Positions 7,914 through 48,776 of a DNA stretch of 56,615 nt are shown here, piece after piece. The position numbers and the translations under genes were made by a program. The DNA is from Candidatus Anaerostipes excrementavium (GTDB taxonomy: Bacteria > Bacillota > Clostridia > Lachnospirales > Lachnospiraceae). The notes beneath the pieces are model-generated. The model saw nothing but the letters and a program-made list of their open reading frames with translations, was not told the DNA's origin and searched no databases. Within the stretch, counting starts at the first letter, position 1. Every line of letters starts with the position of its first letter. The DNA lies in NCBI GenBank assembly GCA_019114985.1, contig DXEM01000016.1, positions 1 to 56,615 on the forward strand, read 5' to 3'.

Positions 7914-7916
7914 GAA

Positions 7917-7983
7917 AATACCCCTTTCTGTGTTTTATGATACAGTGAATATCATATCACAGAAAGGGGCATAAGTCGATAAA
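7917..7983. repeat. Promoter-bearing direct repeat, copy A
   Basis: About 67 bp nearly identical to 9586-9652, with only a few mismatches. It holds a 12-bp inverted repeat, CCCCTTTCTGTG (7921-7932) and CACAGAAAGGGG (7958-7969), with inner ATGATA/TATCAT arms. Copy A lies directly before the GTPase-nuclease gene. Confidence 0.85.
7951..7979 (-). promoter_or_regulatory. Promoter of the GTPase-nuclease gene, overlapping the inverted repeat
   Basis: Minus strand: TCGACT (7974-7979), a 17-base spacer and TATGAT (7951-7956). One arm of the 12-bp inverted repeat lies between -35 and -10. The other lies downstream of the start and contains the AAAGGGG ribosome site, so a bound regulator could cover both elements. 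Confidence 0.55.
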
Positions 7984-10463: not shown

Positions 10464-10519
10464 TGCCTTTCCTCCTTCCGTTCCTCATTCTATCACGTTA
10501 ACTCGTTATACAAAAGTAA

Positions 10520-10554
10520 CTATGAAATTTATGAGTGACTCATAAATTTCATAG
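10520..10554. terminator. 35-bp perfect palindrome: terminator of the RLP operon or HxlR operator
   Basis: CTATGAAATTTATGAG (10520-10535) and its exact complement (10539-10554) flank TGA. It lies 12 bases beyond the stop of lplA, the last gene of the large operon, and about 57 bases upstream of the HxlR start. On the minus strand it is followed by TTACTTTTG, a weak T run, so it could end the operon, serve as an operator, or both. Confidence 0.55.
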
Positions 10555-10565
10555 CAAGCCTGCAT

Positions 10566-11555
10566 TTACTGAATTAATATTTCAATCAGCTGTTCTTTGG
10601 ACATGTTATGAAAATAGTCTTCTACTGAGATAGCATAAAGCCTTGTTTCCAATTCTTTTTCTTTTAATTTTGCTCCAATCAAATAAGGTACCAGCCCTCG
10701 GCTGTCCAAATTGGAAAAATAATCTCCTGAAAATGCCAGTCGATCGATTCGTCCATTTTTTATATCCATATGGATTTCTATATTTCCACAGTTTTCAACT
10801 CTTCTTTTTTTCAATATTTCATAATCCGGCGAAAATCCATAATTCCATTCCCAGGTATCATACCGTTCATGCTGCAGCGCTTTGACCGCATCCAAATCTT
10901 CTTCTGTCAATTCATATGTATCTAACTGATTTTCTTTCAGCATAAATTGTTTGATGACATGGAAGAATTCTTTTGTTTCCATGTCATTTTTAAGATAAGG
11001 CCTTATATTCGTCACTCTGCTCCGAACAGAATCATGTCCTTTGGAGCGGATCTTGTCTTCTGGCACAGACAGCGCTTTCTCTAACACCTCCAACTCACTG
11101 TCAAACATTAAAGTCCCATGATGCATAATCCTTCCCTCTTTTGCGTATTGAGAATTCCCTGAGAATTTCTTTCCATCTATTTCCATGTCATTTCTGCCAT
11201 TAATTTCTGCATGAACTCCCAACTGTTTCAACGCTTTTGCCACCGGAAGGCAAAATTTTGAGAAATCGAATAGTTCACTATTTTGATCTGTAATATAGGT
11301 GAAATTAATATTTCCCATGTCATGATACACCGCGCCTCCTCCGGATAATCTTCGAACAACATGGATCTGATTTCTTTTCACATAATCCTGATGAATCTCT
11401 GCTGCTGTATTCTGATGTTTTCCGATAATGATTGATGCATCGTTCTGCCAAAGCATAAAATAACTGTGGTGCCGATTCATCTTATCAAATACATATTGCT
11501 CCAACGCTAAGTTAAATCTTGGATCATTGCTTTTGCTCTCGATATAATACATCAT
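10566..11555 (-). CDS. lplA: Lipoate--protein ligase
   Basis: A protein of 329 residues that activates free lipoate with ATP and attaches it to lipoyl domains. The family hallmark RRLSGGGAVYHDMGNINFT lies near residues 67-85, with the K(F)SGNSQ lipoate pocket near 130 and an LplA C-terminal domain. The ATG at 11555 is preferred over one seven codons upstream that overlaps the GGAGG site. It overlaps the MBL gene by 4 bases (ATGA). As the last gene of an operon that also encodes a lipoyl-domain protein, it probably lipoylates that protein from scavenged lipoate. Confidence 0.93.
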   Translation of the reverse strand: MMYYIESKSNDPRFNLALEQYVFDKMNRHHSYFMLWQNDASIIIGKHQNTAAEIHQDYVKRNQIHVVRRLSGGGAVYHDMGNINFTYITDQNSELFDFSKFCLPVAKALKQLGVHAEINGRNDMEIDGKKFSGNSQYAKEGRIMHHGTLMFDSELEVLEKALSVPEDKIRSKGHDSVRSRVTNIRPYLKNDMETKEFFHVIKQFMLKENQLDTYELTEEDLDAVKALQHERYDTWEWNYGFSPDYEILKKRRVENCGNIEIHMDIKNGRIDRLAFSGDYFSNLDSRGLVPYLIGAKLKEKELETRLYAISVEDYFHNMSKEQLIEILIQ

Positions 11556-12331
11556 AAGTTTTCTCCTCCCTCCCATATCCTTTCGACTCTAAATGTCTGT
11601 CCCGGCTTCTGAAAAGGAATCACCGGTATCTTGCTGTTATATCTTTCTATATCTTTTGTCACCATATGCTGTAAATGCCACTGATCATCCTCAGTAAAAG
11701 GTAAATGATAGACAAAAATATACTCTGTGCTGAATATATCCAATAAAATATCCTGTCCCACGGGATGATGATAAAAAAGCGGATTTACAAATATTCCTTG
11801 AAAATGTTTATGAGGAAATCTTTGAAAATCTTCTGAAAAAAAATCTACATCTGCGGTCAGCAAAAATCTTTCTCGAAAAATTTCCAGTATCACGCAAAAA
11901 TGAAGCGTATCTCCAAAGTTTTTTCCCAAATGTCTGGTTTTGATAAAACTTATCTCAATCTCTTTTTCTACCTGATAAGCTTCATAATTTCCCGAGATAT
12001 ACCGAATACTTTCCGGATTCCCTGTATCTTCCAAAATCGATAAACTTTCTTTCTGATCTGGAAGGAAAACAGCCCGCGGACGATGTTCGGCCAAATAAGT
12101 ACAAAGGAGTTTCTTTGAATAATGATCGAAGTGACAATGTGAAAAAATAAGGTAATCCGGTTTCGGCAGCTTCCCTTCCTTCTCAAAAAGATCCTGATAA
12201 ATACTTTCAGGAATAGGACTTGCGTGGAATCCTGTCCCGCTGCAGTCGTATAATCCATCGATCAGACAAGCTTTTCCTTGAGATTCAATCAGAATTCCCG
12301 CATTTCCTATCAGATAAATCCGGCTTTTCAT
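11552..12331 (-). CDS. MBL-fold metallohydrolase
   Basis: About 259 residues. The metal-binding motif HCHFDH (about residues 65-70) is present, with a later His in TRHLGKNFGD and Asp in LTADVDFF, as expected for a two-metal site. Members of this group include lactonases and phosphodiesterases. The ATG at 12331 with AAAGGA upstream starts one base after the RLP stop. Placement in the RLP operon suggests a lactone or phosphate-ester intermediate as substrate (inference). No signal peptide. Confidence 0.8.
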   Translation of the reverse strand: MKSRIYLIGNAGILIESQGKACLIDGLYDCSGTGFHASPIPESIYQDLFEKEGKLPKPDYLIFSHCHFDHYSKKLLCTYLAEHRPRAVFLPDQKESLSILEDTGNPESIRYISGNYEAYQVEKEIEISFIKTRHLGKNFGDTLHFCVILEIFRERFLLTADVDFFSEDFQRFPHKHFQGIFVNPLFYHHPVGQDILLDIFSTEYIFVYHLPFTEDDQWHLQHMVTKDIERYNSKIPVIPFQKPGQTFRVERIWEGGENL

Positions 12332-12332
12332 T

Positions 12333-13577
12333 TTAATGTCCTTTGGTTCCCCATACATCGATAGCCGCTTTTAATTCCTTACAATCTTTTGCCGCTTCTA
12401 AAATTGTTTTTCCTTCCATCTTGGCTTCAATTGCGTGAAGGATTGCTTTCGCACCTGCACAAGCTCCCATCGGATGTCCATAGATCCCTCCGCCGGCCAT
12501 TAAAATACAGTCATTTCCCAGAAGATCCATTAGATATTCGATCGCTCCCGGCTGTACTCCGCCTGCAACTGTCATAAAAGCACGTTTTATATTTTTCATT
12601 GGCGCAATGCATTGAGCGTGTGTTTCTACGAATTCGTTGGTGCTAAGCCCAAAACGTCCGCTGTCAGGATAGACTAACGGCATATCCATCCCTGCTAGCC
12701 TGGCTAATTTTCCACAGGCAAGAGCCGTTGAAATCCCATTGGTTTTTGACCGATAATATGCTCCCATTCCCGCGCAGTGTCCAAAGATCGGATATATCAG
12801 ATTTTCTTTTTTCATGCCGCGGACAAAATCTTCCACAGCGCCCCATCCCATTGCCTGATAATTTACCATCAAAGCATTGGCACCGGCGTCAATCGCTCTT
12901 TTCGCGCGCTCTAATAAATTCTCTCCTGTGATATTTACTGCATACAGACAAGTCTTTTCTTTTCCAATATCTTTAAGCTGTTCCATCACTGCCGCTGTTC
13001 TTTTTTCCATAGGAGAATATTCTGGATAGGATAAAAGTTCATCATCTTTGATGACATCTGCTCCTCCCAGAGCGGCCTGTCTTGCTCCTTTTGCGCTCAC
13101 TTCCGGAGGAACTCCGATACATGGTTTTAGGATGGCTCCTACCAATGGCCTTTCTGCCACTCCAATCCTCTTTCTAATTCCGTCGATCCCCATCAGCGGT
13201 CCCGGAATCTCCTTTAAGATCTTCTCTGGAAAATCAATATCTACCAACTTGATTCCATCTTGTCCTAGTACATTTCCGGCAACGGTGCTCAGGATCATAG
13301 GAAGATAGGCAGGAAAGTTGGCAATCGGAAAGGCAATTCTGGCAATACATGCCCTTTCTTCTGCCATTGGATAAATCCCAATGACTTTTCCTCCATAATT
13401 TTCAATTACTTCCGGAGTTTCTCCCTCCACATGGGTCCAGGTCCCTGCGCTCTGGTCTGCTGCCACCAGTTTGACCCATTCATAGAGATCTGGTTCTTTC
13501 TCTGATTTCATGTAATATGTAGCCGTCAAAAAATCTTCATTGATACTTTCTGATACTCGCATTGTTTCAAATTTCAT
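12333..13577 (-). CDS. RuBisCO-like protein (form IV), decarboxylase/enolase/isomerase type
   Basis: 414 residues with the RuBisCO large-chain barrel. Key residues seen: Lys151 in AILKPCIG (Lys175 equivalent) and Lys177, Asp179 and Glu180 in GGADVIKDDE (the carbamylated Lys and metal ligands), plus His267 in IFGHCAG and late phosphate-site glycines (VAGGVQ, AGGGIYGHP). The loop-6 Lys of true RuBisCO is not evident and KPKLG is replaced by KPCIG, so CO2 fixation is unlikely. Known RLPs act as MtnW enolase, methylthioribulose isomerase, or OiaX/OiaT on oxo-isoapionate phosphate. The ATG at 13577 follows AAGGAGG; an upstream ATG at 13718 is rejected. It lies 20 bases after a small membrane-protein gene. 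Confidence 0.9.
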   Translation of the reverse strand: MKFETMRVSESINEDFLTATYYMKSEKEPDLYEWVKLVAADQSAGTWTHVEGETPEVIENYGGKVIGIYPMAEERACIARIAFPIANFPAYLPMILSTVAGNVLGQDGIKLVDIDFPEKILKEIPGPLMGIDGIRKRIGVAERPLVGAILKPCIGVPPEVSAKGARQAALGGADVIKDDELLSYPEYSPMEKRTAAVMEQLKDIGKEKTCLYAVNITGENLLERAKRAIDAGANALMVNYQAMGWGAVEDFVRGMKKENLIYPIFGHCAGMGAYYRSKTNGISTALACGKLARLAGMDMPLVYPDSGRFGLSTNEFVETHAQCIAPMKNIKRAFMTVAGGVQPGAIEYLMDLLGNDCILMAGGGIYGHPMGACAGAKAILHAIEAKMEGKTILEAAKDCKELKAAIDVWGTKGH

Positions 13578-13597
13578 ATTGTGCCTCCTTCTATTCG

Positions 13598-13696
13598 TTA
13601 GGCTTTCTGCTTCATCTGTTTCTTTTGGTTCCTGTTTTTTCTGCGGACCAGTGTCCATACGAAAGCTCCCGCCATCCATACAAGCAAAAATTCCAA
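13598..13696 (-). CDS. Small membrane protein, 32 residues, TTG start
   Basis: A short ORF between PTS IIC and the RLP. AAAAGGAGGT lies six bases before the TTG at 13696. The product has one hydrophobic segment (FLLVWMAGAFVWTLV, residues 3-17) and a strongly basic tail (RRKNRNQKKQMKQKA) ending at TAA 13598-13600. The layout suggests a single-pass protein with a cytoplasmic tail. I recognise no family. It could assist the PTS IIC or tether a cytoplasmic enzyme (speculation). The strong ribosome site and 20-base gap to the RLP gene support translation. Confidence 0.65.
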   Translation of the reverse strand: MEFLLVWMAGAFVWTLVRRKNRNQKKQMKQKA

Positions 13697-13727
13697 GGTC
13701 ACACCTCCTTTTCTTCAAAGAGATTTT

Positions 13728-13756
13728 CAGATGGAGACAATCAATGCCTCCATCTG
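13728..13756. promoter_or_regulatory. Intercistronic stem-loop between PTS IIC and the RLP segment
   Basis: CAGATGGAG (13728-13736) pairs with CTCCATCTG (13748-13756) across an 11-base loop. On the minus strand it follows the IIC stop by about 20 bases and is trailed by AAAATCTCTTT, so it may be an mRNA processing or partial termination point that sets different levels for transport and RLP genes. Confidence 0.5.
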
Positions 13757-13775
13757 TTTCAGGGGAAGATTTATG

Positions 13776-15044
13776 TTAAATCACCGTCTGGTGAAAGATC
13801 TGAAGGACTTTATATATGATCCATGTAATTGGATTTCCTCCTTCAGATAAACAGCTTGTTAATGTATTTGTACTATCCAAAGAACCGCAAATATATGCAA
13901 TATTCGTATGTGCTTCCGCTAGTGCTGTAGCACATAAAAAGTAAACTGCAAATACAACAATGGCTGCAATCAGTGTATGCAGAATATTATCTTTTGCATA
14001 ATAAGCCAGTGGAATAATGAACCACGGCACCGCTACCAGACTCGCTACTGCCAACATTCGATTGCCGGGAATAATGGACATCACCGTAACAATTGGCGTC
14101 ATCAGCATAATGACCGTCATATTACATGGATTTCCCATCAAAGTAGAAGCATCAATTCCAATCCAGATCTTTTTCCCATGCATTCTTTTTTCGCAAAATT
14201 CCTGCGCCGCATTTGATATTGGAAGCAGACCTTCCATCATTATCGAAATCATACGCGGAAGTAAAATCATAACTGCGCCTACATTAACGCCAAGCAAGAA
14301 GATCTGAATCGGTCCAAATCCTGCCAGAATTCCGATCACAACTCCTATGATCGCTCCCATGACCATCGTCTCTCCGAAGATCCCCAGCTTTTCCTGTAAA
14401 GTCTCCGGATCTGCTTTTACATCTTTTAATCCGGGAATCTTTTGACATAATTTTATAACAGGGAATCCGATCATAGCCGGCGCTATAATCGCTCCAGTTG
14501 GCCATGTGCAGCCTTCCATTCCGCTTGCCTCTTGGAAGATCGGTGCAATCCAGTCAGACCATTTCCACGTAATCGTCATATAAATTGCCGTTGCAGCGAC
14601 TGCCCAGATAATACTTTCCGTTGCCCCATAAATTAAAGCGCCGCATGCCAGAAAACTCCAATAATTCCAAAAGTCAATCATCAATGTCTTAGTGAAATTG
14701 GTTGCCAGCAATAACAGATTCAGCCCGATTCCGACTAGGATCAACAGGCCGCCTACCGGTGATCCCCAGGCATAAGACATCAAAGACCATCCGGTATCCA
14801 CAATATCCAGATTCCATCCCAGCCTTTCTACCATCGCCGTCGTTGCCGGTTCCATCTGTGCTACCAACATATCCGTTGTTAGATTCATTCCGACCATACC
14901 AACAGCTCCGGTCAATGCGGCTCGAAGCGCATCTCCCACTTTCATTCGAAAAATCAGGCCAATGATGAATAATCCAACCGGCACAATTCCATTTGATCCA
15001 AGCTGTGACAATACGTCTGTAATGACGTTTAAATTAAATCCCAT
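13776..15044 (-). CDS. PTS galactitol-type IIC component
   Basis: 422 residues with many hydrophobic segments; a complete GatC-family channel. Conserved stretches include GMVGMNLTTDML, the loop LDIVDTGWSLMSYAWGSPVGG and ISNAAQEFCEKRMHGKKIWIGID. It moves the substrate inward while IIB phosphorylates it. AAAGGAG precedes the ATG at 15044. It follows IIA by 15 bases and is less closely followed by the small membrane-protein gene. Substrates of GatC relatives include galactitol, arabitol and sugar acids, so none can be assigned. Confidence 0.92.
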   Translation of the reverse strand: MGFNLNVITDVLSQLGSNGIVPVGLFIIGLIFRMKVGDALRAALTGAVGMVGMNLTTDMLVAQMEPATTAMVERLGWNLDIVDTGWSLMSYAWGSPVGGLLILVGIGLNLLLLATNFTKTLMIDFWNYWSFLACGALIYGATESIIWAVAATAIYMTITWKWSDWIAPIFQEASGMEGCTWPTGAIIAPAMIGFPVIKLCQKIPGLKDVKADPETLQEKLGIFGETMVMGAIIGVVIGILAGFGPIQIFLLGVNVGAVMILLPRMISIMMEGLLPISNAAQEFCEKRMHGKKIWIGIDASTLMGNPCNMTVIMLMTPIVTVMSIIPGNRMLAVASLVAVPWFIIPLAYYAKDNILHTLIAAIVVFAVYFLCATALAEAHTNIAYICGSLDSTNTLTSCLSEGGNPITWIIYKVLQIFHQTVI

Positions 15045-15059
15045 ACTGTTCTCCTTTCA

Positions 15060-15521
15060 TCAGCATGTTGATGCGTTTTCAAAAGCTTTTGTCACAATTT
15101 CCTTAATGTCTTCGCATGTTTTTGCGTCAATAATTTCTTGAATGACTTTCTCGTTCTGTATGACATCCATAAGCTTAGAAATCACTTCCAGCTGTCCCTG
15201 ATCCGTATCAACAGCCAGCATAAAAATAGCTTTTGCATTTATATATTCTTTATCCGCATCGATCCGTTCAAATGTTATTCCTTCTTTTCTTGGCTGCCCT
15301 ACCAAGATTGCAGTTTTTAAGACTCCGTCTCTCTCACAATGGGGAATTGCTACCGCATTGGGTTCTGTACAGATTCCCGTAGGATATTCATTTTCCCGAT
15401 CGATCACAGATTGTCCATAAGTTGGTTTCACCATTCCCATGGACGCCAGATAATCTGCCATCTCATGTAAGACTTCATCCCTTTTCGTATTTTGAATTTT
15501 GTATCCTATAATTTGGGGCAA
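15060..15521 (-). CDS. PTS IIA component (GatA/fructose-type)
   Basis: 153 residues of the PTS_EIIA type 2 fold. The phospho-accepting His lies in NAVAIPHCERDG (about residues 55-66), and AIFMLAVDTDQGQLEVISKLMDVI is the usual following block. It receives phosphate from HPr and passes it to IIB. The start is unusual: a TTG at 15521 is the only good in-frame start before the domain, yet the strong AGGAGG is 26 bases upstream and a two-codon ATG mini-ORF lies between. Translation may be inefficient or the start misjudged. Confidence 0.88.
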   Translation of the reverse strand: MPQIIGYKIQNTKRDEVLHEMADYLASMGMVKPTYGQSVIDRENEYPTGICTEPNAVAIPHCERDGVLKTAILVGQPRKEGITFERIDADKEYINAKAIFMLAVDTDQGQLEVISKLMDVIQNEKVIQEIIDAKTCEDIKEIVTKAFENASTC

Positions 15522-15573
15522 TTTTAATGCATTGTTTATTTTGCTCGCCTCCTATCGCTGTCTCTTCACTTCT

Positions 15574-15873
15574 TTAGGCATTCTTCTTTATCGCTTCCAT
15601 TAACGCTTCTTTCACTTCTGCCTTTCCTCTTCCGGTGATAAGAGGGATGCCATTGACCACTGGGATATCTCCGAAATCCAACGTAATTTTAGCCATTAAT
15701 AAAATGACATCCGGTTTCAACTGTTTTACTGCCGTTTTTCCCTGGGTAGCCGGTCTTTTTTGTACATTTCCTTTGATTCCCAGTTCCTTACATACGTCTT
15801 CGCACATTTTCGCTCCAACAGTAGATGTAGCAAATCCTGCTCCGCACAATACTAAAATTGTCTTATTTTCCAT
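15574..15873 (-). CDS. PTS galactitol-type IIB component
   Basis: 99 residues with the phosphocysteine loop ILVLCGAGFATSTVGAKMC near the N-terminus and the GKAEVKEAL C-terminal helix. It belongs with the IIA and IIC that follow. The ATG at 15873 has GAGGT 8 bases upstream; a GTG three codons earlier is less likely. Confidence 0.92.
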   Translation of the reverse strand: MENKTILVLCGAGFATSTVGAKMCEDVCKELGIKGNVQKRPATQGKTAVKQLKPDVILLMAKITLDFGDIPVVNGIPLITGRGKAEVKEALMEAIKKNA

Positions 15874-15914
15874 TCCGATCACCTCAATTTCTGATTTGTT
15901 CTTAAGATTTAGAC

Positions 15915-16958
15915 TTATTCAAAAACAACGACTCCTTTAATCATTTTACCCCGCCGCATTTCATCATATCCCTTGGCTAAATCTTTTAACGCATATCGGT
16001 TCGTAATAAATTTTTTTGCATCCAGCTGACCACTTAAGACCAAATTCAAAGCTATGCGGTTTACCTCCGGCGAATAAGCAGATGCTCCATAAACCGTGAT
16101 CTCTTTATAGTGAATCATATTGGTATCAATGATTGCCGCACTTTTCTCAGATATTCCTCCAAAAAAGATAACTTTGCCTCTTTTCCTTGTCAGGCTAACC
16201 GCATCTGCCTGTGCCTGTCCCACCGGACACGCACAGATTACGGTATCCGCTCCCCTGCCTCCTGTCTTTTCCATGATCAATTCCTTTAATTTCGGATCAC
16301 TGCTGCTCATCGTATAGACATTCTCAAACCCTTGTTTTCTCGCAAGCTCTGCTTTCTCAGGATTCATTTCCACAATGATGACTTCCTTCGTCCCTCGGAT
16401 TTTGGCGATTTCACTGTGAAGACATCCGATGGTTCCGGCTCCAATGACCACGACCAGATCTTCCATTACAATATTCGTTTGGATCTGCGCATTCAGCACA
16501 GAAGACGCTGTCTCTGCGATGACTGTCTCAATCGGATCTATTCCCTTAGGAATTTCATTAAAACAACCGTTTTCCAGCATATCTCCGGTAAATGCAACAT
16601 ACTCCGCAAAACCTCCTGGAATCCCTTCTGCCGTGCCGATCATTTGCATATCATCGCATTGATTTTGGATTCCGTTTTTACAATACCAGCATTTTCCACA
16701 CGGTATCACCGGCGCGATTGACAGTTTCATACCTTGCGGATATTTCTTATTTTTGCTTTCCGCTACTTCTCCCGCGATCTCATGTCCGGAAATCGAAGGA
16801 TATTGGGCTTTTGAAGATCCTCCTCCATAGGTTCTTAAATCCGATCCGCAGATTCCACATGCAATGGTCTTTAACAAAATTCCATTTTCAGGGCATTGTG
16901 GGGTCTCGACTGTTTCATATCGAAGATCTTCTGCTCCATACAACACTGCCGCCTTCAT
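15915..16958 (-). CDS. Zinc-dependent medium-chain alcohol/polyol-phosphate dehydrogenase
   Basis: 347 residues. Catalytic zinc ligands are in CGICGSD (about 34-40) and GHEIAGEV (about 59-66). The structural zinc site is CGKCWYCKNGIQNQC, and the Rossmann motif is VVIGAGTIGCLH near 170. Relatives include galactitol-1-phosphate 5-dehydrogenase, sorbitol dehydrogenase and threonine dehydrogenase. It lies 41 bases before PTS IIB, so it probably oxidises the phosphorylated product of this PTS to a keto-phosphate with NAD (inference). GGAGG precedes the ATG. Confidence 0.9.
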   Translation of the reverse strand: MKAAVLYGAEDLRYETVETPQCPENGILLKTIACGICGSDLRTYGGGSSKAQYPSISGHEIAGEVAESKNKKYPQGMKLSIAPVIPCGKCWYCKNGIQNQCDDMQMIGTAEGIPGGFAEYVAFTGDMLENGCFNEIPKGIDPIETVIAETASSVLNAQIQTNIVMEDLVVVIGAGTIGCLHSEIAKIRGTKEVIIVEMNPEKAELARKQGFENVYTMSSSDPKLKELIMEKTGGRGADTVICACPVGQAQADAVSLTRKRGKVIFFGGISEKSAAIIDTNMIHYKEITVYGASAYSPEVNRIALNLVLSGQLDAKKFITNRYALKDLAKGYDEMRRGKMIKGVVVFE

Positions 16959-16979
16959 TTCATGTTCCCTCCTTTCTTA

Positions 16980-17633
16980 TCATGCATCTAGTGTTTCTAA
17001 TCGCTCTGCCAGCGCCGTCAAAAATTTAGCTCCGGTTGCTCCGTCAATCACACGGTGATCCATATTCAAAGCGATTTGCATCGTTTTCCCTGCGACAATC
17101 TTTCCATCTTTTATAATCGGAACGTCTTCCATTCTCCCAACAGAAATAATAGCTCCATTCGGCGCATTTACAATTGCGGTAAAAGCATGGATATGAAACA
17201 TTCCCAGATTGCTGACGACGAATGTCCCTCCGCTTAGATCCTCCATAGAAAAATTGCCTTTCACAGATTTTTTCTTAATCTCTTCCATTGCCTGATGGAT
17301 CTCTTCCAAAGATTTTTTGTCTGCGTCTTTGATCACAGGGACAAGAAGCCCTCTCTTCGTATCTACGGCGACGCCCATATGAATATTCTCATGCAGAATG
17401 ATCTTTGTTCCGTCATCCCAGGAAGCATTCATAATAGGAAACTCGGCGATCGTATCTGCCACCGCTTTGATCAGAATCGTGGTATATGAGACTTTAACTG
17501 GAAGTTTTTTGTGGTACGCGATCATATTTTCGCAGTTGATCACTGAAAAATGTGTAAACTGCGGCGCTTCCCAGCTTTTTATCATCTGTCGTCCCATGCT
17601 TTTTCCCAGCGCAGACAATCTTTTCTCACTCAT
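16980..17633 (-). CDS. Dihydrolipoamide acyltransferase catalytic domain (truncated-type E2)
   Basis: 217 residues that match only the C-terminal catalytic domain of E2 enzymes of 2-oxoacid or acetoin dehydrogenase complexes: FTHFSVINC, PIMNASW, GVAVDTKRGLLVPVI, FVVSNLGMF and the active-site MDHRVIDGA near the end. No lipoyl domain and no clear peripheral-subunit-binding domain are present; the lipoyl domain is a separate gene whose stop overlaps this start by 8 bases (ATGAGTGA). Splitting of E2 into two chains is unusual, though coupled translation could keep the ratio. The acyl group transferred to CoA is unknown. Confidence 0.9.
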   Translation of the reverse strand: MSEKRLSALGKSMGRQMIKSWEAPQFTHFSVINCENMIAYHKKLPVKVSYTTILIKAVADTIAEFPIMNASWDDGTKIILHENIHMGVAVDTKRGLLVPVIKDADKKSLEEIHQAMEEIKKKSVKGNFSMEDLSGGTFVVSNLGMFHIHAFTAIVNAPNGAIISVGRMEDVPIIKDGKIVAGKTMQIALNMDHRVIDGATGAKFLTALAERLETLDA

Positions 17634-17868
17634 CGACTTCCACCCAGGCAATCGTTTTTGTAATCTCGACGGTATCGCCTTCATCAGCTACAATTTCAGC
17701 TAATGTACCATCCAACGCAGATTCTACTTCCGTGACTGCCTTATCTGTCTCGATTTCAACCAACACATCACCCTTCTGTACTTGATCACCTACTTTCTTT
17801 TTCCACTCTAAAATCGTTCCTTCTTCCATATCCAGGCCGATTTTCGGCATAATAACTTCTTTTCGCAT
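17626..17868 (-). CDS. Free-standing biotin/lipoyl-domain protein
   Basis: 80 residues forming one lipoyl domain and nothing more. The lipoylated Lys is in EIETDKAVTEVES (about residue 43), with IMPKIGLDMEEGTI at the start and GDTVEITKTIAWVE at the end. It should carry the acyl group between E1 and the separate E2 catalytic chain. AAAGGAG precedes the ATG at 17868. The encoded lipoate ligase at the end of the operon presumably modifies it. Confidence 0.92.
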   Translation of the reverse strand: MRKEVIMPKIGLDMEEGTILEWKKKVGDQVQKGDVLVEIETDKAVTEVESALDGTLAEIVADEGDTVEITKTIAWVEVDE

Positions 17869-17888
17869 AACATGTTTCTCCTTTCATA

Positions 17889-19256
17889 TTAAAATTTAAA
17901 AATTGCTTCTCTGATGATCTCACTGACAGACGGATGCGGAAAAACAATTTTTTTCATTTCTTCTATCGTAACTTTCTGCTCCATCAATGCTCCAATTCCC
18001 CATATCATTTCTGATGCATAACTGCCCAAAATATGAGCTCCTGCCAGACATCCTGTGTCTTGATCCATAAGCAGCTTACAAATTCCGCCTATACCATCAT
18101 TTTCCGCCACAAATCTTCCGGAATATGCCATTGGGATTTCCACTGTCTTCATTCTCAGTCCTTTTTCCTTCGCTGACTCTTCGGTTTCCCCAACGGAAGC
18201 AAGCTCCGGGTTTGTATAAATAACCGATGGAATTACACCATAATCTATTGTGTCCTGGATTCCAAACATGTCATTTACTGCTGTTTCACTTTCACGGTAT
18301 GCCGTATGTGCAAGCATCATTTTCCCATTTACATCTCCCGCTGCATAGATACCTTCCACAGACGTCCGAAGATGTTCATCTGTTACGATTTTTCCATTTT
18401 CTATCTTGAGATTAACAGATTCCAATCCAAGTCCTTTTATGATCGGATGTCTGCCGACTGACCATAAGATCTTATCCGCTTTGCATCGGATCCATTGATC
18501 CTCTTTTTTACAAACCACTCCATCTTTTTCTATCTCCGTTACCTGATACCCCAGCATGAATTGAATCCCTTTTTTCTCCAATTCTTTTTGAAGCATTTTT
18601 GTGATTTTCCGATCCATTGTTCCGGCAATTTTATCAAGCATCTCTACAACCGTTACCTTCGTACCCATTCCAGCAAAATATGCGGCCATTTCCAATCCAA
18701 TCACGCCGGCTCCTACAATAACCAGCTTGTTTGGCAGCTGAGGAAAATCTAACAGTTCCCGGCTTGTTACCGCCAATCCGCTTTCCATTGCCTCTTTCCC
18801 TCCTTTGATTGGAGGAATCACCGGTTGGGACCCTGCAGCAATTAAGAGATTCCTTGCCTCGTATATTTCCCCTTCTGCTTCCACCAAAAATCCTCTGTCT
18901 GTTTTCCCTTTGATTTTTGCCTGTTGATAGATGACTTCGACTTTATGTTTTTTCATCGTCATTTTGACGCCGCCAACCAACATATGTATGACTCTATTTT
19001 TTCTTTTCTGTATCGCTGTTGGATCAATCAAAACGTTCTCCGTTAATATTCCGAATGAGTTTCCATTCTTGGTATGTTCATAAATCTTCGCCGAATTCAG
19101 CAATGTTTTTGTTGGGATACAGCCTTCATTAAGACATACCCCTCCTAGTTTGTTTTTTTCAAACAGGAGAACTCTTTTCTTTTTTTTCGCCGCCCTTTGT
19201 GCACCCAAATATCCGGCAGGTCCTCCTCCGATTACAATGAGATCATATGGCTCCAT
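17889..19256 (-). CDS. lpdA: Dihydrolipoyl dehydrogenase (E3)
   Basis: 455 residues, full length. N-terminal FAD motif VIGGGPAGYLGAQRA, redox disulfide GGVCLNEGCIPTK, NAD motif VIVGAGVIGLEMA, second FAD block YAAGDVNG and the C-terminal catalytic His-Glu in HPSVSEII (the usual HPxxSE). It reoxidises the dihydrolipoyl domain with NAD. There is no extra lipoyl domain at the N-terminus. It lies between E1 beta and the lipoyl protein with gaps of 13 and 20 bases. Confidence 0.95.
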   Translation of the reverse strand: MEPYDLIVIGGGPAGYLGAQRAAKKKKRVLLFEKNKLGGVCLNEGCIPTKTLLNSAKIYEHTKNGNSFGILTENVLIDPTAIQKRKNRVIHMLVGGVKMTMKKHKVEVIYQQAKIKGKTDRGFLVEAEGEIYEARNLLIAAGSQPVIPPIKGGKEAMESGLAVTSRELLDFPQLPNKLVIVGAGVIGLEMAAYFAGMGTKVTVVEMLDKIAGTMDRKITKMLQKELEKKGIQFMLGYQVTEIEKDGVVCKKEDQWIRCKADKILWSVGRHPIIKGLGLESVNLKIENGKIVTDEHLRTSVEGIYAAGDVNGKMMLAHTAYRESETAVNDMFGIQDTIDYGVIPSVIYTNPELASVGETEESAKEKGLRMKTVEIPMAYSGRFVAENDGIGGICKLLMDQDTGCLAGAHILGSYASEMIWGIGALMEQKVTIEEMKKIVFPHPSVSEIIREAIFKF

Positions 19257-19269
19257 ATTTCTCCTCCTT

Positions 19270-20238
19270 CTAAAGAATCGACTTCACAGCTTTTAAAATA
19301 TCCTGATCATTCGGAAGATAGGCATCCTCCAGCACCGGCGCAAATGGAACCGGAACGTTAGGCGCTCCCACTCTCTGTATTGGTCTCTTCAAATCTTCAA
19401 ATGCTTTTTCCTGGATGATAGACGCGATTTCTGCTCCAAATCCACCTTTTACACATGCTTCATGAGCAATAACAGCCTTTCCTGTTTTCTTGACGGATGC
19501 AAGGATCGTTTCTGCATCGAACGGCTCGAGACATCTTACATCTACGACTTCTGCTTCGATTCCCTGCTCGGCCAATTCTTTCGCTGCTTTCAATGACTGA
19601 TCTACCATAGAAGAATAGGCTATGATCGTAATGTCTTTCCCCTGCCGTTTAATATCACAGGTATAATCACATTCATAGGGTTCCTCCGGCACTTCACACC
19701 TTTTCTTATACAGCGCTTTATGTTCAATAAATACGACTGGATTATTATCCCGGATCGCACGCAGAAGCAGACCTTTTGCATCGCATGCATTTGATGGAAT
19801 TACCACTCGAATCCCAGGAACATGGGCCAGCAAAGCTTCCAAAGATTGTGAATGCTGCGCGCCGTTTCCAAGTCCCGCACCGCCCTGCGTCCGAATTACC
19901 AGAGGAAGACTGACACGTCCGCCGTACATATACCTTAACTTTGCAGCCTGATTCATGATCTGATCAAAACAAACGCCAATAAAATCAATATAAGAAATTT
20001 CCACGACCGGACGAAGCCCCAGCATCGAAGACCCGATCGCTGTTCCGATAATCGCATTTTCGGAAATTGGCGTATCCATGATTCTGCCCTCTCCAAAGTG
20101 TTCTATCAGATCATAGGAACATCGAAGCTGTCCTCCATAGACTGCAATATCTTCTCCGATCGAAAAAACATTCGGGTCACTGCTGAATGCGATATGCAGC
20201 GCTTCATTAATTGCCTGACGCATAGATAATTTTCTCAT
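19270..20238 (-). CDS. Thiamine-diphosphate dehydrogenase E1 component, beta subunit (acetoin/pyruvate type)
   Basis: 322 residues of the transketolase-like pyrimidine and C-terminal domains: MRQAINEAL, VFSIGEDIAVYGG, DTPISENAIIGTAIG, GRVSLPLVIRTQGGAG and the C-terminal KAVIAHEACVKGGFGAEI. It pairs with the alpha subunit encoded 5 bases upstream. It is equally similar by eye to AcoB (acetoin) and PdhB, so the substrate remains open; the operon context suggests a diketone, hydroxyketone or 2-oxoacid derived from the imported sugar. Confidence 0.93.
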   Translation of the reverse strand: MRKLSMRQAINEALHIAFSSDPNVFSIGEDIAVYGGQLRCSYDLIEHFGEGRIMDTPISENAIIGTAIGSSMLGLRPVVEISYIDFIGVCFDQIMNQAAKLRYMYGGRVSLPLVIRTQGGAGLGNGAQHSQSLEALLAHVPGIRVVIPSNACDAKGLLLRAIRDNNPVVFIEHKALYKKRCEVPEEPYECDYTCDIKRQGKDITIIAYSSMVDQSLKAAKELAEQGIEAEVVDVRCLEPFDAETILASVKKTGKAVIAHEACVKGGFGAEIASIIQEKAFEDLKRPIQRVGAPNVPVPFAPVLEDAYLPNDQDILKAVKSIL

Positions 20239-20243
20239 TCTGT

Positions 20244-21260
20244 CTACCTCCCCTGATTCTCATATACTTTCCATGAAATGTCCGCGTAAGTCTCATCGTA
20301 CAGATCATTTTGCAGATCTTGCGGAGATGGTTCTTTTTCTTTTTTTGCACTTTCGCTGGCTGCCAGTACAAGCTCTTCCTCTTCCTTCTGCATCCTCCTA
20401 AGTTCGTCTTGAGATATTTTGCAAGTCTTCACGAGTATTTCTTCCAAATGTTTGATCGGGCAGCGTTCCTTCCATTTGGCAACTTCTTCGCGTGTCCTAT
20501 AATTTTCGTTGTCACCGTAATAATGCCCGGCCATTCGATATGTCTTCATTTCCATTAAGATTGGTCCGTTTCCGTTTCGCACCTTTTGGGCAGCTTTCCC
20601 GAAGCTTTGATAAACTGCCTCAATATCGTTTCCATCAACCGTAACGCCTTCTATTCCATATCCAATTGCGCGGTCGCTTAAATTTTCCACACTGCAGGAC
20701 TTTTTCTGACTTGTAGAAATTGCATACTGGTTATTCTCACATACAAATATGACCGGTAAGTTCATGACTGCCGCCATATTGATCGATTCATGAAAGGTTC
20801 CTTCATTTGCCGCCCCATCTCCAAAGAAACAAACGACGATATTCTTCGTGTGCTGATATTTCAATGCAAAACCAGCTCCAACGGCAATCGGAATACCTCC
20901 TCCTACAATTCCATTTGCTCCAAGCATGCCGATCGACATATCCGCAATATGCATGGATCCGCCCTTCCCTTTACAATAGCCAGTCTCTCTTGCCATCAGC
21001 TCCGCAAACATCTTTTTCATGTCCGCGCCCTTTGCGATACAATGCCCATGTCCGCGGTGTGTAGAAGTAATATAATCCTGATCTGATAAGTGGGCACAGA
21101 TTCCCACTGCAATCGCCTCTTCTCCGTTATAGGTATGTACGACTGCCCGTGTTAAATTCATTTTTGCCAGCTCGATTGCTTCATTTTCAAAAGCTCGAAT
21201 TCTTACCATCTTCCGATAAAATTCAATCAGCTGCTCTCTTGACAACACCTTCTGATTCAT
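20244..21260 (-). CDS. Thiamine-diphosphate dehydrogenase E1 component, alpha subunit (acetoin/pyruvate type)
   Basis: About 338 residues. The thiamine diphosphate motif runs from FFGDGAANEGTFHESINMA to FVCENNQYAIST, preceded by GKGGSMHI and followed by MKTYRMAGHYYGD. With the beta subunit it decarboxylates or cleaves the substrate and acylates lipoamide. The ATG at 21260 is 12 bases after AAAGGAG; a TTG at 21269 is better spaced and may be the real start. First gene of the large operon. Confidence 0.92.
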   Translation of the reverse strand: MNQKVLSREQLIEFYRKMVRIRAFENEAIELAKMNLTRAVVHTYNGEEAIAVGICAHLSDQDYITSTHRGHGHCIAKGADMKKMFAELMARETGYCKGKGGSMHIADMSIGMLGANGIVGGGIPIAVGAGFALKYQHTKNIVVCFFGDGAANEGTFHESINMAAVMNLPVIFVCENNQYAISTSQKKSCSVENLSDRAIGYGIEGVTVDGNDIEAVYQSFGKAAQKVRNGNGPILMEMKTYRMAGHYYGDNENYRTREEVAKWKERCPIKHLEEILVKTCKISQDELRRMQKEEEELVLAASESAKKEKEPSPQDLQNDLYDETYADISWKVYENQGR

Positions 21261-21315
21261 ATCGCCCAATATTCTCCTTTCGCTTTGTCTCCGTCTGCTG
21301 TTATCTTGTGATTTT

Positions 21316-21344
21316 ATTGTAGCAACGCCTATTTTGACCTTCAA
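21316..21344 (-). promoter_or_regulatory. Promoter of the 13-gene RLP/acyl-CoA operon
   Basis: Minus strand: -35 TTGAAG (21339-21344), a 17-base spacer and -10 TACAAT (21316-21321), about 55 bases before the E1 alpha start. The rest of the 205-base divergent region is AT-rich with no strong second promoter; the PRD regulator probably binds here. Confidence 0.65.
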
Positions 21345-21465
21345 TGCGCCCCAAACTCTTTCTGGTAGAATTTACTTCCGTCATGTTGAACAACTTTTCT
21401 TGCTTTTTCATTTTTCTTTTGTTAACCTTTACTTATTACAAAAAATAACGGGAAGGAGAATTCTT

Positions 21466-23475
21466 ATGAATCGAAAGCAGCACCAACTGATGAACCTTTT
21501 TACATTAACCGAGAAGAAAAAATATTCTTGCGAAGAGTTGTCCGATCTTCTTCAGCTTGGAAAACGCTCGATCACCAACTACATCAATGAAATTAACAGC
21601 TTTTTATCCGGGAATGATTTTGAGGAAATTCGCCTTCTCCCAGATAATACATATCAGTTGGATGTACCTTTACAGGAGCTTGCAAAGATCCGAAAAAAAT
21701 ATTTTTCACAGCCGCTCTATGAATACCACTTTTCTTTGGATGAGAGGATTACGATCATAAAACTGCTGCTTTGCAAACAAAATACCGTCACGACTTCGGA
21801 TATCATGCGATCTTTAGACATCAGCAAAAAGACATGCCTTTCTGATATGAAGCATGTCGCAAACGATCTGGCACAGCAGGATATCCCTTTCCTTTCTGCA
21901 GCAAAAGGATATTCCATCGATGTAAACGAAGTTTTTCGAAGAGATTATTTGATCAATAGTTTCCACACCTTTTTAAATGTTTTAGGAGATAACTCTCCAT
22001 TTTCTGAAATATCAGGGATCGATCTCTGGATTTCTCAGTATTTTCATCTTGAATTATTAAAAGACCGCATATTTCCAATCTTACTGAACTGGCAGAGAGA
22101 AAATCAGATCAATATTGAAGGCTATCAATTTTATCAGCTTTTGTGGATCCTGGTCGTCGCAGCAGACCGCATCCGTCAAGGATATCCGATCAGCGCCTAT
22201 CCCTGCGCATCTGATTACAGTACGATCCAAATTTCAGAAAATTTATGTTCCCATTTAGAAAAGGTTTTAGACCTTTCTTTCCCTGCGGCGGAAGTTTATT
22301 TTCTCGCCTCTTACATCGATGGGCTCTCCCTGACCTCATTGCCGCAAATGCCTCTTGGAACGATTCCGTCCAATACGGTCATCCATACATTCTTAGTAAA
22401 TGTATCCCGTGATCTAAAATTAAAACTGGCCAATGATACCAAACTTTATACGCAGCTTTCTGCTCATATTAAAAGCTTTTTTTCTATTTTGGAAAGAAAT
22501 ACGACATTCGACCGGAATTTTTATAAAGAACTGGAGGAAGAATACCCGTTAATCTGCAGATCTGTGAAAAATAACCTTTATATTTTGGAACATAGTTTCC
22601 ATCGGACTTACAAGGAAAATGAAGCCGCCTTCCTTGTGATGCATATTGCCGCAGCTGTTTCTAAAATCCTAGCAGAACGACAAGATTTTAAGGTGCTTGT
22701 TGTATGCGATTCCGGAACCGCCATGGCATCTTATCTTATGAATAAATTGAAATACTTTTGTAAAATCGATGATATTGTTACAGTTTCATCTTTTGAGCTT
22801 CATAACTATTTGCGCAGGATCAACCCGGCGCCTAACCTTATTATTTCTCTTTATCCAATCGATGGCATCTCTATTCCGATGGTTATCGTCTCTCCAGGGC
22901 TGCCTTCCAGCGATCTGAGCCGCATTCAGGAAAAAATGTATGCCTCAAAAAAAGATGAAAATAACCTTTTAAAGAAACGTTATGGATATACCTCTCACCA
23001 AACCTCTTACAAAATCGAGGCATCCAACAGTATCTTAGATCCTGGGCAAATTGCATTGGATTTTGAGGCCGATACTTGGCAGGATGCTTTACAGTTAGGC
23101 GGAAACCTGCTGATGGAAGAAGGTATCGTTACGCAAAATTATATTGATTCCATTATCCGAAATGTAGAAATCAACGGTCCTTATTTTGTATTCTGGCCAG
23201 GCATTGCTTTGGCGCACGCAAATACAAGTTCTAAATCGATTCCGTTCCAGGCAAGCCTGATACGTTTAAAGCACCCTGTTTTCTTTCATAATGATCTGAA
23301 CGACCCTGTGAGATATATTTTTACTTTTATTGCCTCCGACACTCCAGAAAATGATGATAAAATCGTTTCCATCATTCACCTGGCATCCAGCCCTACATTA
23401 TTCCAGCATCTGGATCATTCAAAGACACCTCAGGAAGCTTTTGAAATTATTCGAAGAACAGAACGAGATATTTAA
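21466..23475 (+). CDS. PTS-regulation-domain transcriptional activator (BglG/MtlR type)
   Basis: 669 residues, in order: N-terminal winged helices (SCEELSDLLQLGKRSITNYI), two PRDs in about 160-420 with conserved His residues, a GatB-like IIB domain (VLVVCDSGTAMASYLMNKL) and a C-terminal fructose-type IIA domain with GIALAHAN. HPr and the cognate IIB/IIA phosphorylate these domains to set activity (family knowledge). AAGGAG precedes the ATG at 21466; an in-frame upstream ATG at 21334 is rejected. It diverges from the RLP operon, which it most likely activates when its PTS is working. Confidence 0.92.
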   Translation: MNRKQHQLMNLFTLTEKKKYSCEELSDLLQLGKRSITNYINEINSFLSGNDFEEIRLLPDNTYQLDVPLQELAKIRKKYFSQPLYEYHFSLDERITIIKLLLCKQNTVTTSDIMRSLDISKKTCLSDMKHVANDLAQQDIPFLSAAKGYSIDVNEVFRRDYLINSFHTFLNVLGDNSPFSEISGIDLWISQYFHLELLKDRIFPILLNWQRENQINIEGYQFYQLLWILVVAADRIRQGYPISAYPCASDYSTIQISENLCSHLEKVLDLSFPAAEVYFLASYIDGLSLTSLPQMPLGTIPSNTVIHTFLVNVSRDLKLKLANDTKLYTQLSAHIKSFFSILERNTTFDRNFYKELEEEYPLICRSVKNNLYILEHSFHRTYKENEAAFLVMHIAAAVSKILAERQDFKVLVVCDSGTAMASYLMNKLKYFCKIDDIVTVSSFELHNYLRRINPAPNLIISLYPIDGISIPMVIVSPGLPSSDLSRIQEKMYASKKDENNLLKKRYGYTSHQTSYKIEASNSILDPGQIALDFEADTWQDALQLGGNLLMEEGIVTQNYIDSIIRNVEINGPYFVFWPGIALAHANTSSKSIPFQASLIRLKHPVFFHNDLNDPVRYIFTFIASDTPENDDKIVSIIHLASSPTLFQHLDHSKTPQEAFEIIRRTERDI

Positions 23476-47813: not shown

Positions 47814-48776
47814 CTATTGTCCCAGCTGCATGCGAATTACCTGTTCCAGATCTTCTGCCGTCAATCCAAATTCTTTTTGAAGAAATTCCGGTGTTCCGAC
47901 CTGACCAAATCGATCTTTCACTCCTACCCGTTTCAAAGCGGCCGGAATCTTTTGCTCTGCCATAACTTCTGCCACAGCGCTTCCAAGTCCTCCATATACA
48001 GAATGATTTTCAAAAGTCACAATCAGGCGTTTGCCCTCGCTTTCCTTTTGAATCAATTCTTCATCCAGCGGCTTAATCGTAAACATATCGATGACTTCTA
48101 CGGAAATATGATCTTTTTCCAAACTCTCCGCACAGTCCAGCGCATCGGAAACCAGCTGTCCGGCTGTGATCAGCAACACATCCGTTCCTTCTTTTAAAAT
48201 ATTTCCTTTTCCGATGACGAATTCAGATCCAGGAGCATATACGTTCCGGACTGCCTTTCGATTTCCTCTGACATAATGAATCCCTTCTCGTTTTGCAAAT
48301 TCCTTCAGAATCCATTCCATCTGAACATCATCTGCAGCATCGCAAACAACAGCCTGGGGGATTTCTCTCATCAATGCCACGTCTTCCCAGGTCGTATGGG
48401 TTCCTCCGTTGGCTCCTACGGTAAATCCCGGATCTGATCCATAAATATTCATCGTATTTCCTGCATAAGCGCCGGATAAATATAACTGATCGAAAATTCG
48501 CCTTGTTGCAAACGGTCCAAAAGTATGAAGAAACGGTTTAAATCCGGTAATGGAGAGTCCTGCGGCTACTCCTGCCATATTTGCTTCCGCGATCCCGCAC
48601 TGCACAAATCGATCCGGATTTGTTTTCTGGATTTTTGTAAATCCGCTGGCCCCGCCAAGGTCCGCTTCCAATGCGACGACTTTGTCGTCATAAGTCATTA
48701 AATTCTGGATCGTTTCTACCACACAGGTGCGCAGTTCACGCCCTTTTTGATTCCTGTCTTTCGCTAATTGATACAT
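47814..48776 (-). CDS. Transketolase, C-terminal half subunit
   Basis: 320 residues covering the pyrimidine-binding and C-terminal transketolase domains: ALEADLGGASG, CGIAEANMAGVAAGL, YGSDPGFTVGANGGTHTTWED and VEVIDMFTIKPLDEE. It complements the N-terminal subunit, overlapping its gene by 13 bases. Together they transfer two-carbon ketol units between sugar phosphates. Confidence 0.93.
   Translation of the reverse strand: MYQLAKDRNQKGRELRTCVVETIQNLMTYDDKVVALEADLGGASGFTKIQKTNPDRFVQCGIAEANMAGVAAGLSITGFKPFLHTFGPFATRRIFDQLYLSGAYAGNTMNIYGSDPGFTVGANGGTHTTWEDVALMREIPQAVVCDAADDVQMEWILKEFAKREGIHYVRGNRKAVRNVYAPGSEFVIGKGNILKEGTDVLLITAGQLVSDALDCAESLEKDHISVEVIDMFTIKPLDEELIQKESEGKRLIVTFENHSVYGGLGSAVAEVMAEQKIPAALKRVGVKDRFGQVGTPEFLQKEFGLTAEDLEQVIRMQLGQ

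Follow-up and report, generated by a model that had tools for sequence, protein, structure and literature searches.

An operon joining a RuBisCO-like protein, a lipoate-dependent dehydrogenase complex and a phosphotransferase system in Candidatus Anaerostipes excrementavium and relatives

To our knowledge, few functions have been assigned to RuBisCO-like proteins (RLPs). Of the described ones closest to our subject, MtnW is the 2,3-diketo-5-methylthiopentyl-1-phosphate enolase, the RLP of the Rhodospirillum rubrum methylthioadenosine (MTA)-isoprenoid shunt is a 5-methylthioribulose 1-phosphate (MTRu-1P) isomerase, and OiaX and OiaT belong to apionate catabolism. The nearest lipoate-dependent complexes are acetoin dehydrogenase (AcoABCL) and pyruvate dehydrogenase (PDH). 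We analysed a stretch of 56,615 nucleotides from Candidatus Anaerostipes excrementavium (assembly GCA_019114985.1, contig DXEM01000016.1; hereafter the window), in which an RLP shares an operon with the E1, E2 and E3 genes of such a complex and with a phosphotransferase system (PTS). Among the open-access papers listed by our searches, judged by title, abstract start or passages, none places an RLP and an acyl-CoA-forming lipoate complex in one pathway, and none gives an RLP the function of feeding such a complex; nor do the available passages of PMC10892978, PMC8307300 and PMC13001223 bring the two together in a single pathway. Within these papers, the statement of an earlier reading made from the sequence alone (the sequence-only reading), that no described pathway has this set, held. 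We conclude that the parts belong to known families and that the working set appears to be new.

The operon consists of 13 minus-strand genes in one run (10566-21260), in the order E1 alpha, E1 beta, E3, lipoyl protein, E2, Zn-dependent dehydrogenase, PTS IIB, IIA and IIC, an open reading frame (ORF) of 32 amino acids (aa), RLP, metallo-beta-lactamase-fold (MBL) hydrolase and lipoate-protein ligase LplA. Intergenic spacing ranges from an 8-base overlap between the lipoyl and E2 genes to 79 bases, which bears out the continuous run with gaps under 80 bases described in the sequence-only reading; the gene order was found again. Family models upheld the identities it had given to E1 alpha, E1 beta, E3, the free lipoyl protein, the E2 chain, the Zn dehydrogenase, the PTS, the RLP, the MBL and LplA. 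Catalytic motifs are intact in E1 alpha, the lipoyl protein, E2, E3, the dehydrogenase, IIA, IIB, the MBL and LplA. We conclude that the operon as described is real.

With the window included, we found 15 distinct orthologous loci in 13 genomes of Clostridia and Enterococcus. Five are of the Anaerostipes type (the window, L032, L033, L108 and L109; L numbers denote loci and G numbers genomes), and the others are L034 (= L117, from a Clostridia metagenome-assembled genome, MAG), L035 (= L113, a Eubacteriales MAG) and the Enterococcus loci L036, L037, L038, L111, L112, L114, L115 and L116. One contig scan yielded seven loci with RLPs 68-87% identical, and whole-genome searches added the rest. 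In all 15, the genes for the RLP, E1 alpha, E1 beta, the lipoyl protein, E2 and E3 are clustered together, E2 being damaged in L032. Within the genus, RLP and E1 beta occurred in the same five of 11 genomes, and the other six had no E1 beta match at 1e-30; chance would give this 1 time in 462 if the genomes were independent, which they are not. Among 105 Enterococcaceae genomes, RLP and E1 beta (at least 71% identity) occurred in the same six, with eight loci each (chance about 6e-10, again taking as independent genomes that are not). In nine further Enterococcaceae genomes, and at a second site in G1180 and in G1182, the only E1 beta matches were of 50-52%. The presence of RLP and E1 beta at orthologue level thus agreed in 116 of 116 genomes (11/11 congeneric and 105/105 Enterococcaceae). 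In a family sample of 397 genomes, an RLP or E1 beta at orthologue level was found only in the source genome. A class scan at 1e-60 gave RLP matches in 12 of 391 genomes, with the source genome alone at orthologue level, and a phylum scan gave matches in 36 of 398, one of them a further orthologue (G1140, the genome of L034). At the DNA level the operon had no match in the plasmid collection, and a plasmid protein search for the RLP returned 366 records, all below 60% identity. Co-occurrence of the RLP and the acyl-CoA-forming genes in relatives, tested in this way, was not refuted. We conclude that the RLP and the E1/E2/E3 set are linked, and strictly so in the loci found.

RLP matches were present in 26 of the 397 family genomes, the source genome included, with 28 foreign places and a best foreign identity of 45%. 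At 20 of these 28 places (L039-L058, L041 being only 3.7 kb long) no E1/E2/E3 set was found within 6.5 kb. L053 has a weak E1 beta match (29%) inside a transketolase-like pair, and in G133 a distant RLP and a 45% E1 beta match lie 35 kb apart on the same contig. Judged by ORF starts, the neighbours at L039-L058 include TIM-barrel, UPF0261-like and RpiB-like proteins, DUF1537-like kinases and PTS, in several distinct and apparently uncharacterised neighbourhoods. For the distant RLPs of the class and phylum scans (L059-L095), neighbourhoods were viewed to 1.5 kb. In addition, the Enterococcus loci L178, L179 and L180 carry a PTS regulation domain (PRD) regulator, a GAT-type PTS and an SDR-like oxidoreductase joined to a further regulator and E1/E2/E3 genes, without an RLP.

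The RLP (12333-13577, minus strand, 414 aa; PF00016/PF02788; start at 13577 likely) is the sole RuBisCO-family protein found in the 2.69-Mb source genome, where two matched pieces belong to one gene. Its carbamylation triad (K177/D179/E180), read as intact from the sequence, is indeed so, and is invariant across eight aligned RLPs together with K151. In a midpoint-rooted tree built from 71 different RLPs (79 sequences before identical ones were dropped), the E1-linked RLPs form one group of 15 rows with 100/99 support and a stem of 0.86. Its nearest outside rows, two plasmid RLPs linked to DUF1537, sit on a very long branch, which leaves the sister group unsure. A loop-6 signature, YPD[ST]GRFG, is present in the 15 E1-linked rows and in 0 of the 56 other rows; most other RLPs have lysine or glycine in place of its arginine. 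An AlphaFold model (8 sequences) was mediocre, with a mean pLDDT of 66.6.

The best-scoring named relatives of the RLP are MtnW models and structures. It shares the triad with MtnW but falls below the curated cut-offs (TIGR03332, 257.8 of 513.6 bits; NF007095, 302.2 of 409), has different gene neighbours and carries N102 (GNVLG) where MtnW (L159, GKLSL) has a lysine, which we take to be the catalytic base at that N123-equivalent position. We therefore rejected an assignment as MtnW. OiaX was rejected as well, given 178.7 bits against a cut-off of 700 (NF042437) and failing residues; with OiaX and OiaT the likeness lies in RLPs acting in sugar catabolism, and no four-carbon acid sugar kinase occurs in the 15 loci. 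The decarboxylation once offered as a role for the RLP accordingly has no specific support. Among structures, MtnW scored 222 bits and 3qfw, which we take to represent the R. rubrum-like RLP class, 106 bits, the R. rubrum protein itself being outside the comparison. Compared with carboxylating RuBisCO, the RLP keeps the K-x-D-E metal site but lacks the loop-6 lysine and the second-phosphate arginine (presumably K334 and R295, respectively). The aligned places of the second-phosphate ligand and the loop-6 lysine are C268 and R308; that these residues are not conserved suits a monophosphate substrate.

The complex genes, all on the minus strand, begin with E1 alpha (20244-21260), a thiamine pyrophosphate (TPP)-dependent dehydrogenase of 338 aa from an ATG at 21260, with a GDG motif, 306 bits to PF00676 and 368.6 bits to TIGR03182 (cut-off 393.85). 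E1 beta (19270-20238, 322 aa; PF02779/PF02780) has PDH E1 beta 3duf as its best PDB match (310 bits), and E3, the dihydrolipoyl dehydrogenase (17889-19256, 455 aa), has a CxxxxC motif and scores 471 bits against TIGR01350 (cut-off 408.8). The free lipoyl-domain protein (17626-17868, 80 aa; PF00364, 76 bits) has its lysine in an ETDKA motif. The E2 acyltransferase catalytic chain (16980-17633, 217 aa; HxxxD) has PF00198, at 230 bits, as its sole Pfam match. In an E1 beta tree of 35 sequences, the RLP-linked proteins form one group of 14 rows (100/100). The operon resembles acetoin dehydrogenase and PDH in having E1 alpha and beta, a lipoyl carrier, E2 and E3 with intact motifs; it differs in its separate lipoyl protein, in an E2 without a lipoyl or peripheral subunit-binding domain, and in its tie to an RLP operon. 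Pfam at 0.001 detected no peripheral subunit-binding domain on E2, either in the window or in three scanned relatives. E2 in the window, L033 and L034 is PF00198 alone, and in L036 it is PF00198 plus a marginal AATase match. The separate lipoyl carrier and an E2 without the usual attachment domain for E1 and E3 (16980-17868 in the window) give an unusual architecture.

The source genome has three biotin/lipoyl domains of PF00364. A biotin motif, EAMKM, marks one of the other two, and fabF- and accC-like ORFs flank the second; this makes it probable that the genome has no lipoyl domain of that family apart from the operon's, GcvH being outside the search. Elsewhere in the window, a 320-aa ORF (47814-48776, minus strand) has weak similarity to E1 beta (21%, 3e-9), as of a transketolase-type half subunit.

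The uptake and oxidation genes that accompany the RLP and the complex vary between loci. The Zn dehydrogenase (at least 72% identity) is found in 11 of the 15 (the window, L033, L034, L108, L109, L038, L111, L112, L114, L115 and L116) and a D-2-hydroxyacid dehydrogenase in three (L035, L036 and L037); L032 has neither, and no cluster has both. In L032, a MAG contig, an ORF at 7274-7972 starts as E2 and ends as IIB, which may be an assembly artefact or a deletion. The E. pallens and E. florum genomes each have two loci, one per dehydrogenase type. Fourteen of the 15 loci include a GAT-family PTS; in L035 its place is taken by an ABC permease fragment and an FGGY kinase, the best NCBIfam model for the kinase being XylB (291 of 380 bits needed). 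Relatives of the D-2-hydroxyacid dehydrogenase and the FGGY kinase on two haloarchaeal plasmids, one record being without annotation, lie in a mixed sugar neighbourhood that points to no substrate. The L034 cluster (11290-17325) has its own sigma-54-type PRD regulator, and after the RLP come HPr, enzyme I and a type I glyceraldehyde-3-phosphate dehydrogenase (GAPDH; 440.8 bits, cut-off 367.2), one of three GAPDHs in its genome (G1140). In L108 and L109 the IIC and RLP genes are separated by an HPr-like gene, with Pfam support from L109.

We propose that the operon encodes an undescribed catabolic pathway, in which the RLP isomerises a ketose phosphate to an alpha-hydroxyketone that the complex splits into an acyl-CoA and glyceraldehyde 3-phosphate (GAP), a general scheme that we consider about evenly balanced between right and wrong. 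We infer all of its reactions and its substrate; the gene content, the intact motifs and the linkage of RLP and complex are observed. The GAT-family PTS would import a polyol as its phosphate, and the Zn dehydrogenase would convert the polyol phosphate to a ketose phosphate; the gene content is consistent with this import and oxidation, already suggested from the sequence. The RLP, with a carbamylated K177 and metal site, would then take a proton next to the carbonyl and shift the carbonyl along the chain via an enediol, a step modelled on the R. rubrum RLP with MTRu-1P. Its product would be an alpha-hydroxyketone, R-CO-CHOH-CHOH-CH2-O-P, which E1, the lipoyl protein, E2 and E3 would cleave as acetoin dehydrogenase cleaves acetoin, with R-CO passing to TPP, lipoamide and CoA in turn, GAP released and NADH made by E3. 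LplA, and probably the MBL, would maintain the lipoyl carrier. The leading candidate for the intermediate is 1-deoxyxylulose 5-phosphate (DXP), which would yield acetyl-CoA and GAP. The operon would then encode a catabolic DXP dehydrogenase, with the RLP supplying DXP or a close 1-deoxyketose phosphate; the enterococcal and kinase variants might bring in 1-deoxyketoses or autoinducer-2-like compounds. In this specific form we regard the proposal as unlikely. Alternatively, 6-deoxyhexitols would yield lactoyl-CoA and plain polyols glycolyl-CoA.

Published precedents exist for the separate steps. According to the available passages of PMC4958253, a Deep-Ykr RLP isomerises MTRu-1P to MTXu-5P en route to DXP. 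The window RLP would resemble the R. rubrum shunt enzyme in ketose 1-phosphate chemistry and in a DXP-type ketose as the outcome; it differs in apparently belonging to another RLP group, in having no recognised sulfurylase cupin, and in its link to a PTS and a lipoate complex. In the passages available of PMC3424233, purified PDH acts on pyruvate and glyceraldehyde to form 1-deoxyxylulose, which XylB phosphorylates, and mutants of PDH increase DXP in vivo, the wild-type enzyme giving too little for growth rescue; the same passages cite work whose title concerns 1-deoxyketose formation by pyruvate and acetoin dehydrogenase. Together with the linkage, the GAPDH in the L034 cluster, which is consistent with GAP as a product, and the XylB-like kinase of L035, these precedents make the general scheme the best explanation. 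The monophyly of the RLP and of E1 beta in their respective trees also supports it.

A parallel was found on plasmids. Of 879 records with E1 beta matches, the 25 listed (48-51% identity) led to sugar operons, and in L118 and L120 a 441-aa protein beside E1 matches structures 3upl and 3upy at 685 and 489 bits. We take these structures to be those of Brucella DRL. The available passages of PMC3847144 name methylerythritol 4-phosphate as the product of DRL/DXR-II; the main text of that paper mentions neither pyruvate dehydrogenase nor acetoin. By coordinates, 14 of the 25 listed E1 beta records were shared with the 40 listed DRL records (47 in all). Among these listed matches, DRL and E1 beta are about 1.1 kb apart in 12, 7.3 kb in one and about 42 kb in one, so that 13 of 25 have both within 8 kb. 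A sugar transporter, E1/E2/E3 and an enzyme that could putatively supply DXP are common to the operon and the plasmid clusters (L118, L120 and L126), which have DRL instead of an RLP and an E1 beta of another clade. In the E1 beta tree, the DRL-linked and Enterococcus proteins cluster together elsewhere (91/93). The idea that RLP-linked and DRL-linked E1 beta are special kin was rejected, since the tree places them apart, and the parallel is an analogy only. As an observation in its own right, L126 adds a lipoyl synthase and a sugar kinase to the DRL cluster and L122 an FGGY kinase; on rhizobial and other plasmids, the company of DRL/DXR-II with E1/E2/E3, sugar transporters, kinases or lipoyl synthase (L118, L120, L122 and L126) suggests a catabolic rather than an isoprenoid role, possibly in methylerythritol or DXP breakdown.

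Several findings weigh against the proposed pathway. The scheme offers no obvious step for the D-2-hydroxyacid dehydrogenase that replaces the Zn dehydrogenase in three of 15 loci, and a GAPDH is present in only one of 15. The RLP is nearer to MtnW structures than to 3qfw, and orthology to the R. rubrum isomerase is not evident. For the plasmid parallel, the E1 beta tree does not join the two groups, six of the 13 DRL/E1 beta plasmids are near-copies from Rhizobium, and four of six DRL records (L123, L124, L125 and L127) have no E1 in the stretch covered (BLAST). Finally, the E1/E2/E3 sets of L178-L180 stand beside a GAT-type PTS without an RLP. The last point also favours a conventional pyruvate or acetoin dehydrogenase operon lying by chance beside an unrelated RLP-PTS sugar operon, as do the origin of all parts in known families and the 35-kb spacing in G133, which shows that loose company occurs. 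We hold chance neighbours to be very improbable, because orthologue-level RLP and E1 beta were never found apart in 116 genomes and, both being single clades, keep company across Clostridia and Enterococcus despite changing front ends.

The other explanations keep the linkage and change the chemistry. The same mechanism could act on an ordinary pentitol or hexitol, or on a 6-deoxyhexitol, to give glycolyl-CoA or lactoyl-CoA, which overlaps the general scheme. The GAT-family PTS and a dehydrogenase akin to sorbitol, idonate and galactitol-phosphate dehydrogenases speak for it; common polyol phosphates, however, reach central metabolism without an RLP, and no glycolyl- or lactoyl-CoA-using gene was recognised in the operon, leaving this version possible but doubtful. 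In a sugar-acid route, oxidation of a sugar acid or its phosphate would yield a 2- or 3-oxo acid for decarboxylation or rearrangement by the RLP, and the complex would form acyl-CoA and CO2 like any ordinary 2-oxo-acid dehydrogenase. This route would account for the D-2-hydroxyacid dehydrogenase of L035, L036 and L037, which has relatives active on 3-phosphoglycerate, glyoxylate and phosphoerythronate, and it fits the PDH match of E1 beta. GAT-family transporters, however, move polyols, the Zn dehydrogenase occupies 11 of 15 loci, the OiaX model is far under its cut-off, and no DUF1537 sugar-acid kinase was found in the 15 loci (BLAST, two queries). Even with apionate-pathway RLPs using 3-oxo-isoapionate 4-phosphate, as the available passages of PMC6302742 have it, we consider this route rather unlikely. 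In an enolase/phosphatase route, the RLP would tautomerise a 2,3-diketo-1-phosphate like MtnW, a HAD phosphatase would dephosphorylate it, and the complex would cleave the dicarbonyl or reductone, with autoinducer-2-like 2,3-diketones as possible feeds. Besides the MtnW scores, HAD-IIB genes in three of 15 loci (they adjoin the cluster in L034 and L035; in L037 they lie 5 kb upstream) argue for it, as does L035, whose FGGY kinase, found together with the ABC permease fragment, scores against autoinducer-2 kinase as well (178 of 528 bits). N102 in place of the MtnW lysine and the sub-threshold model scores argue against it; so does the window, which, unlike the MtnW locus L159, has no relatives of those HAD genes or of mtnK, mtnX or mtnB, and we think this route quite improbable.

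The MBL hydrolase (11552-12331, minus strand; PF00753, 29 bits; HxHxDH-type motif) and LplA (10566-11555, minus strand, 329 aa from the corrected start at 11555; TIGR00545, 422 bits, cut-off 280) were found in five and four of the 15 loci, respectively, all of the Anaerostipes type; the L032 contig ends after the MBL. We also viewed ten E1/E2/E3 loci without an RLP (L121 and L168-L176), of which three have both MBL and LplA (L121, L175 and L176), one has LplA alone (L174) and six have neither. The MBLs of the RLP-less loci (L121, 5689-6459; L175, 2217-2912; L176, 14143-14883) have 24-30% identity. Among 72,556 plasmid records the MBL had a single match, the L121 record; it had no NCBIfam match and nothing meaningful in the PDB. 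We rejected a role for the MBL as pathway lactonase: no MBL gene occurs in the stretch covered of 10 of the 15 loci, and elsewhere the MBL goes with LplA and E1. A part for either protein in the sugar chemistry was not supported. Their restriction to Anaerostipes-type loci and recurrence without an RLP suggest that the MBL and LplA probably serve lipoate handling, the MBL being linked to LplA rather than to the RLP. An MBL-fold family recurring with LplA and E1/E2/E3 could include a lipoyl- or acyl-lipoyl-processing enzyme.

The remaining operon genes, also on the minus strand, concern uptake and oxidation. The Zn-dependent medium-chain dehydrogenase (15915-16958; PF08240/PF00107) is a candidate polyol-phosphate dehydrogenase; its relatives are threonine, sorbitol, idonate and galactitol-1-phosphate dehydrogenases, with no model over its cut-off. 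PTS IIB (15574-15873; PF02302) and IIA (15060-15521; PF00359) are of GAT type, scoring 45 of 95 bits needed for PRK10310 and 86 of 139 for PRK09665. IIC (13776-15044) belongs to the EIIC-GAT family (PF03611, 192 bits, cut-off 24.2). The label galactitol-type thus stands for the family; galactitol specificity was rejected on the galactitol model TIGR00827 (330 of 542 bits needed). The small membrane protein (13598-13696, 32 aa, TTG start), without a Pfam match, is real: a membrane protein of 32-47 aa with the motif [AG]-x-[AV]-W-T-L lies between IIC (or HPr) and RLP in six of six clostridial PTS-type loci (the window, L032, L033, L034, L108 and L109), L035 being outside this search. In Enterococcus, a whole-locus string search of six of eight loci (L112 and L116 left out) returned three short matches (L036, L037 and L115), judged unrelated.

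At the upstream end, ATG 21260 is a likelier E1 alpha start than TTG 21344; the E2 start was corrected to 17633. The divergent PRD/EIIA regulator (21334-23475, plus strand) noted earlier is upheld by PF00874 and PF00359. The site behind the claim of one good promoter is present, as a minus-strand promoter-like sequence at 21344-21316 with a 9/12 match and a TG ahead of the second hexamer; its strength was not supported, since promoter-like matches in the region (31 found, 27.5 expected) are not above chance. A terminator-like hairpin with a 17-pair stem lies 3' of LplA (10519-10555, minus strand), and such matches (8 found, 8.6 expected) are likewise not above chance.

If the general scheme is true, it would give RLPs a new metabolic role and would provide fermentative gut-type bacteria with a route from sugar alcohols to acyl-CoA that bypasses pyruvate. 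It would also make it testable whether E1/E2/E3 complexes act on phosphorylated alpha-hydroxyketones. Should the DXP version be true, the pathway would run the first step of isoprenoid synthesis backwards to draw energy from 1-deoxy sugars or deoxypentitols, and DRL/DXR-II would take the part of the RLP on rhizobial plasmids.

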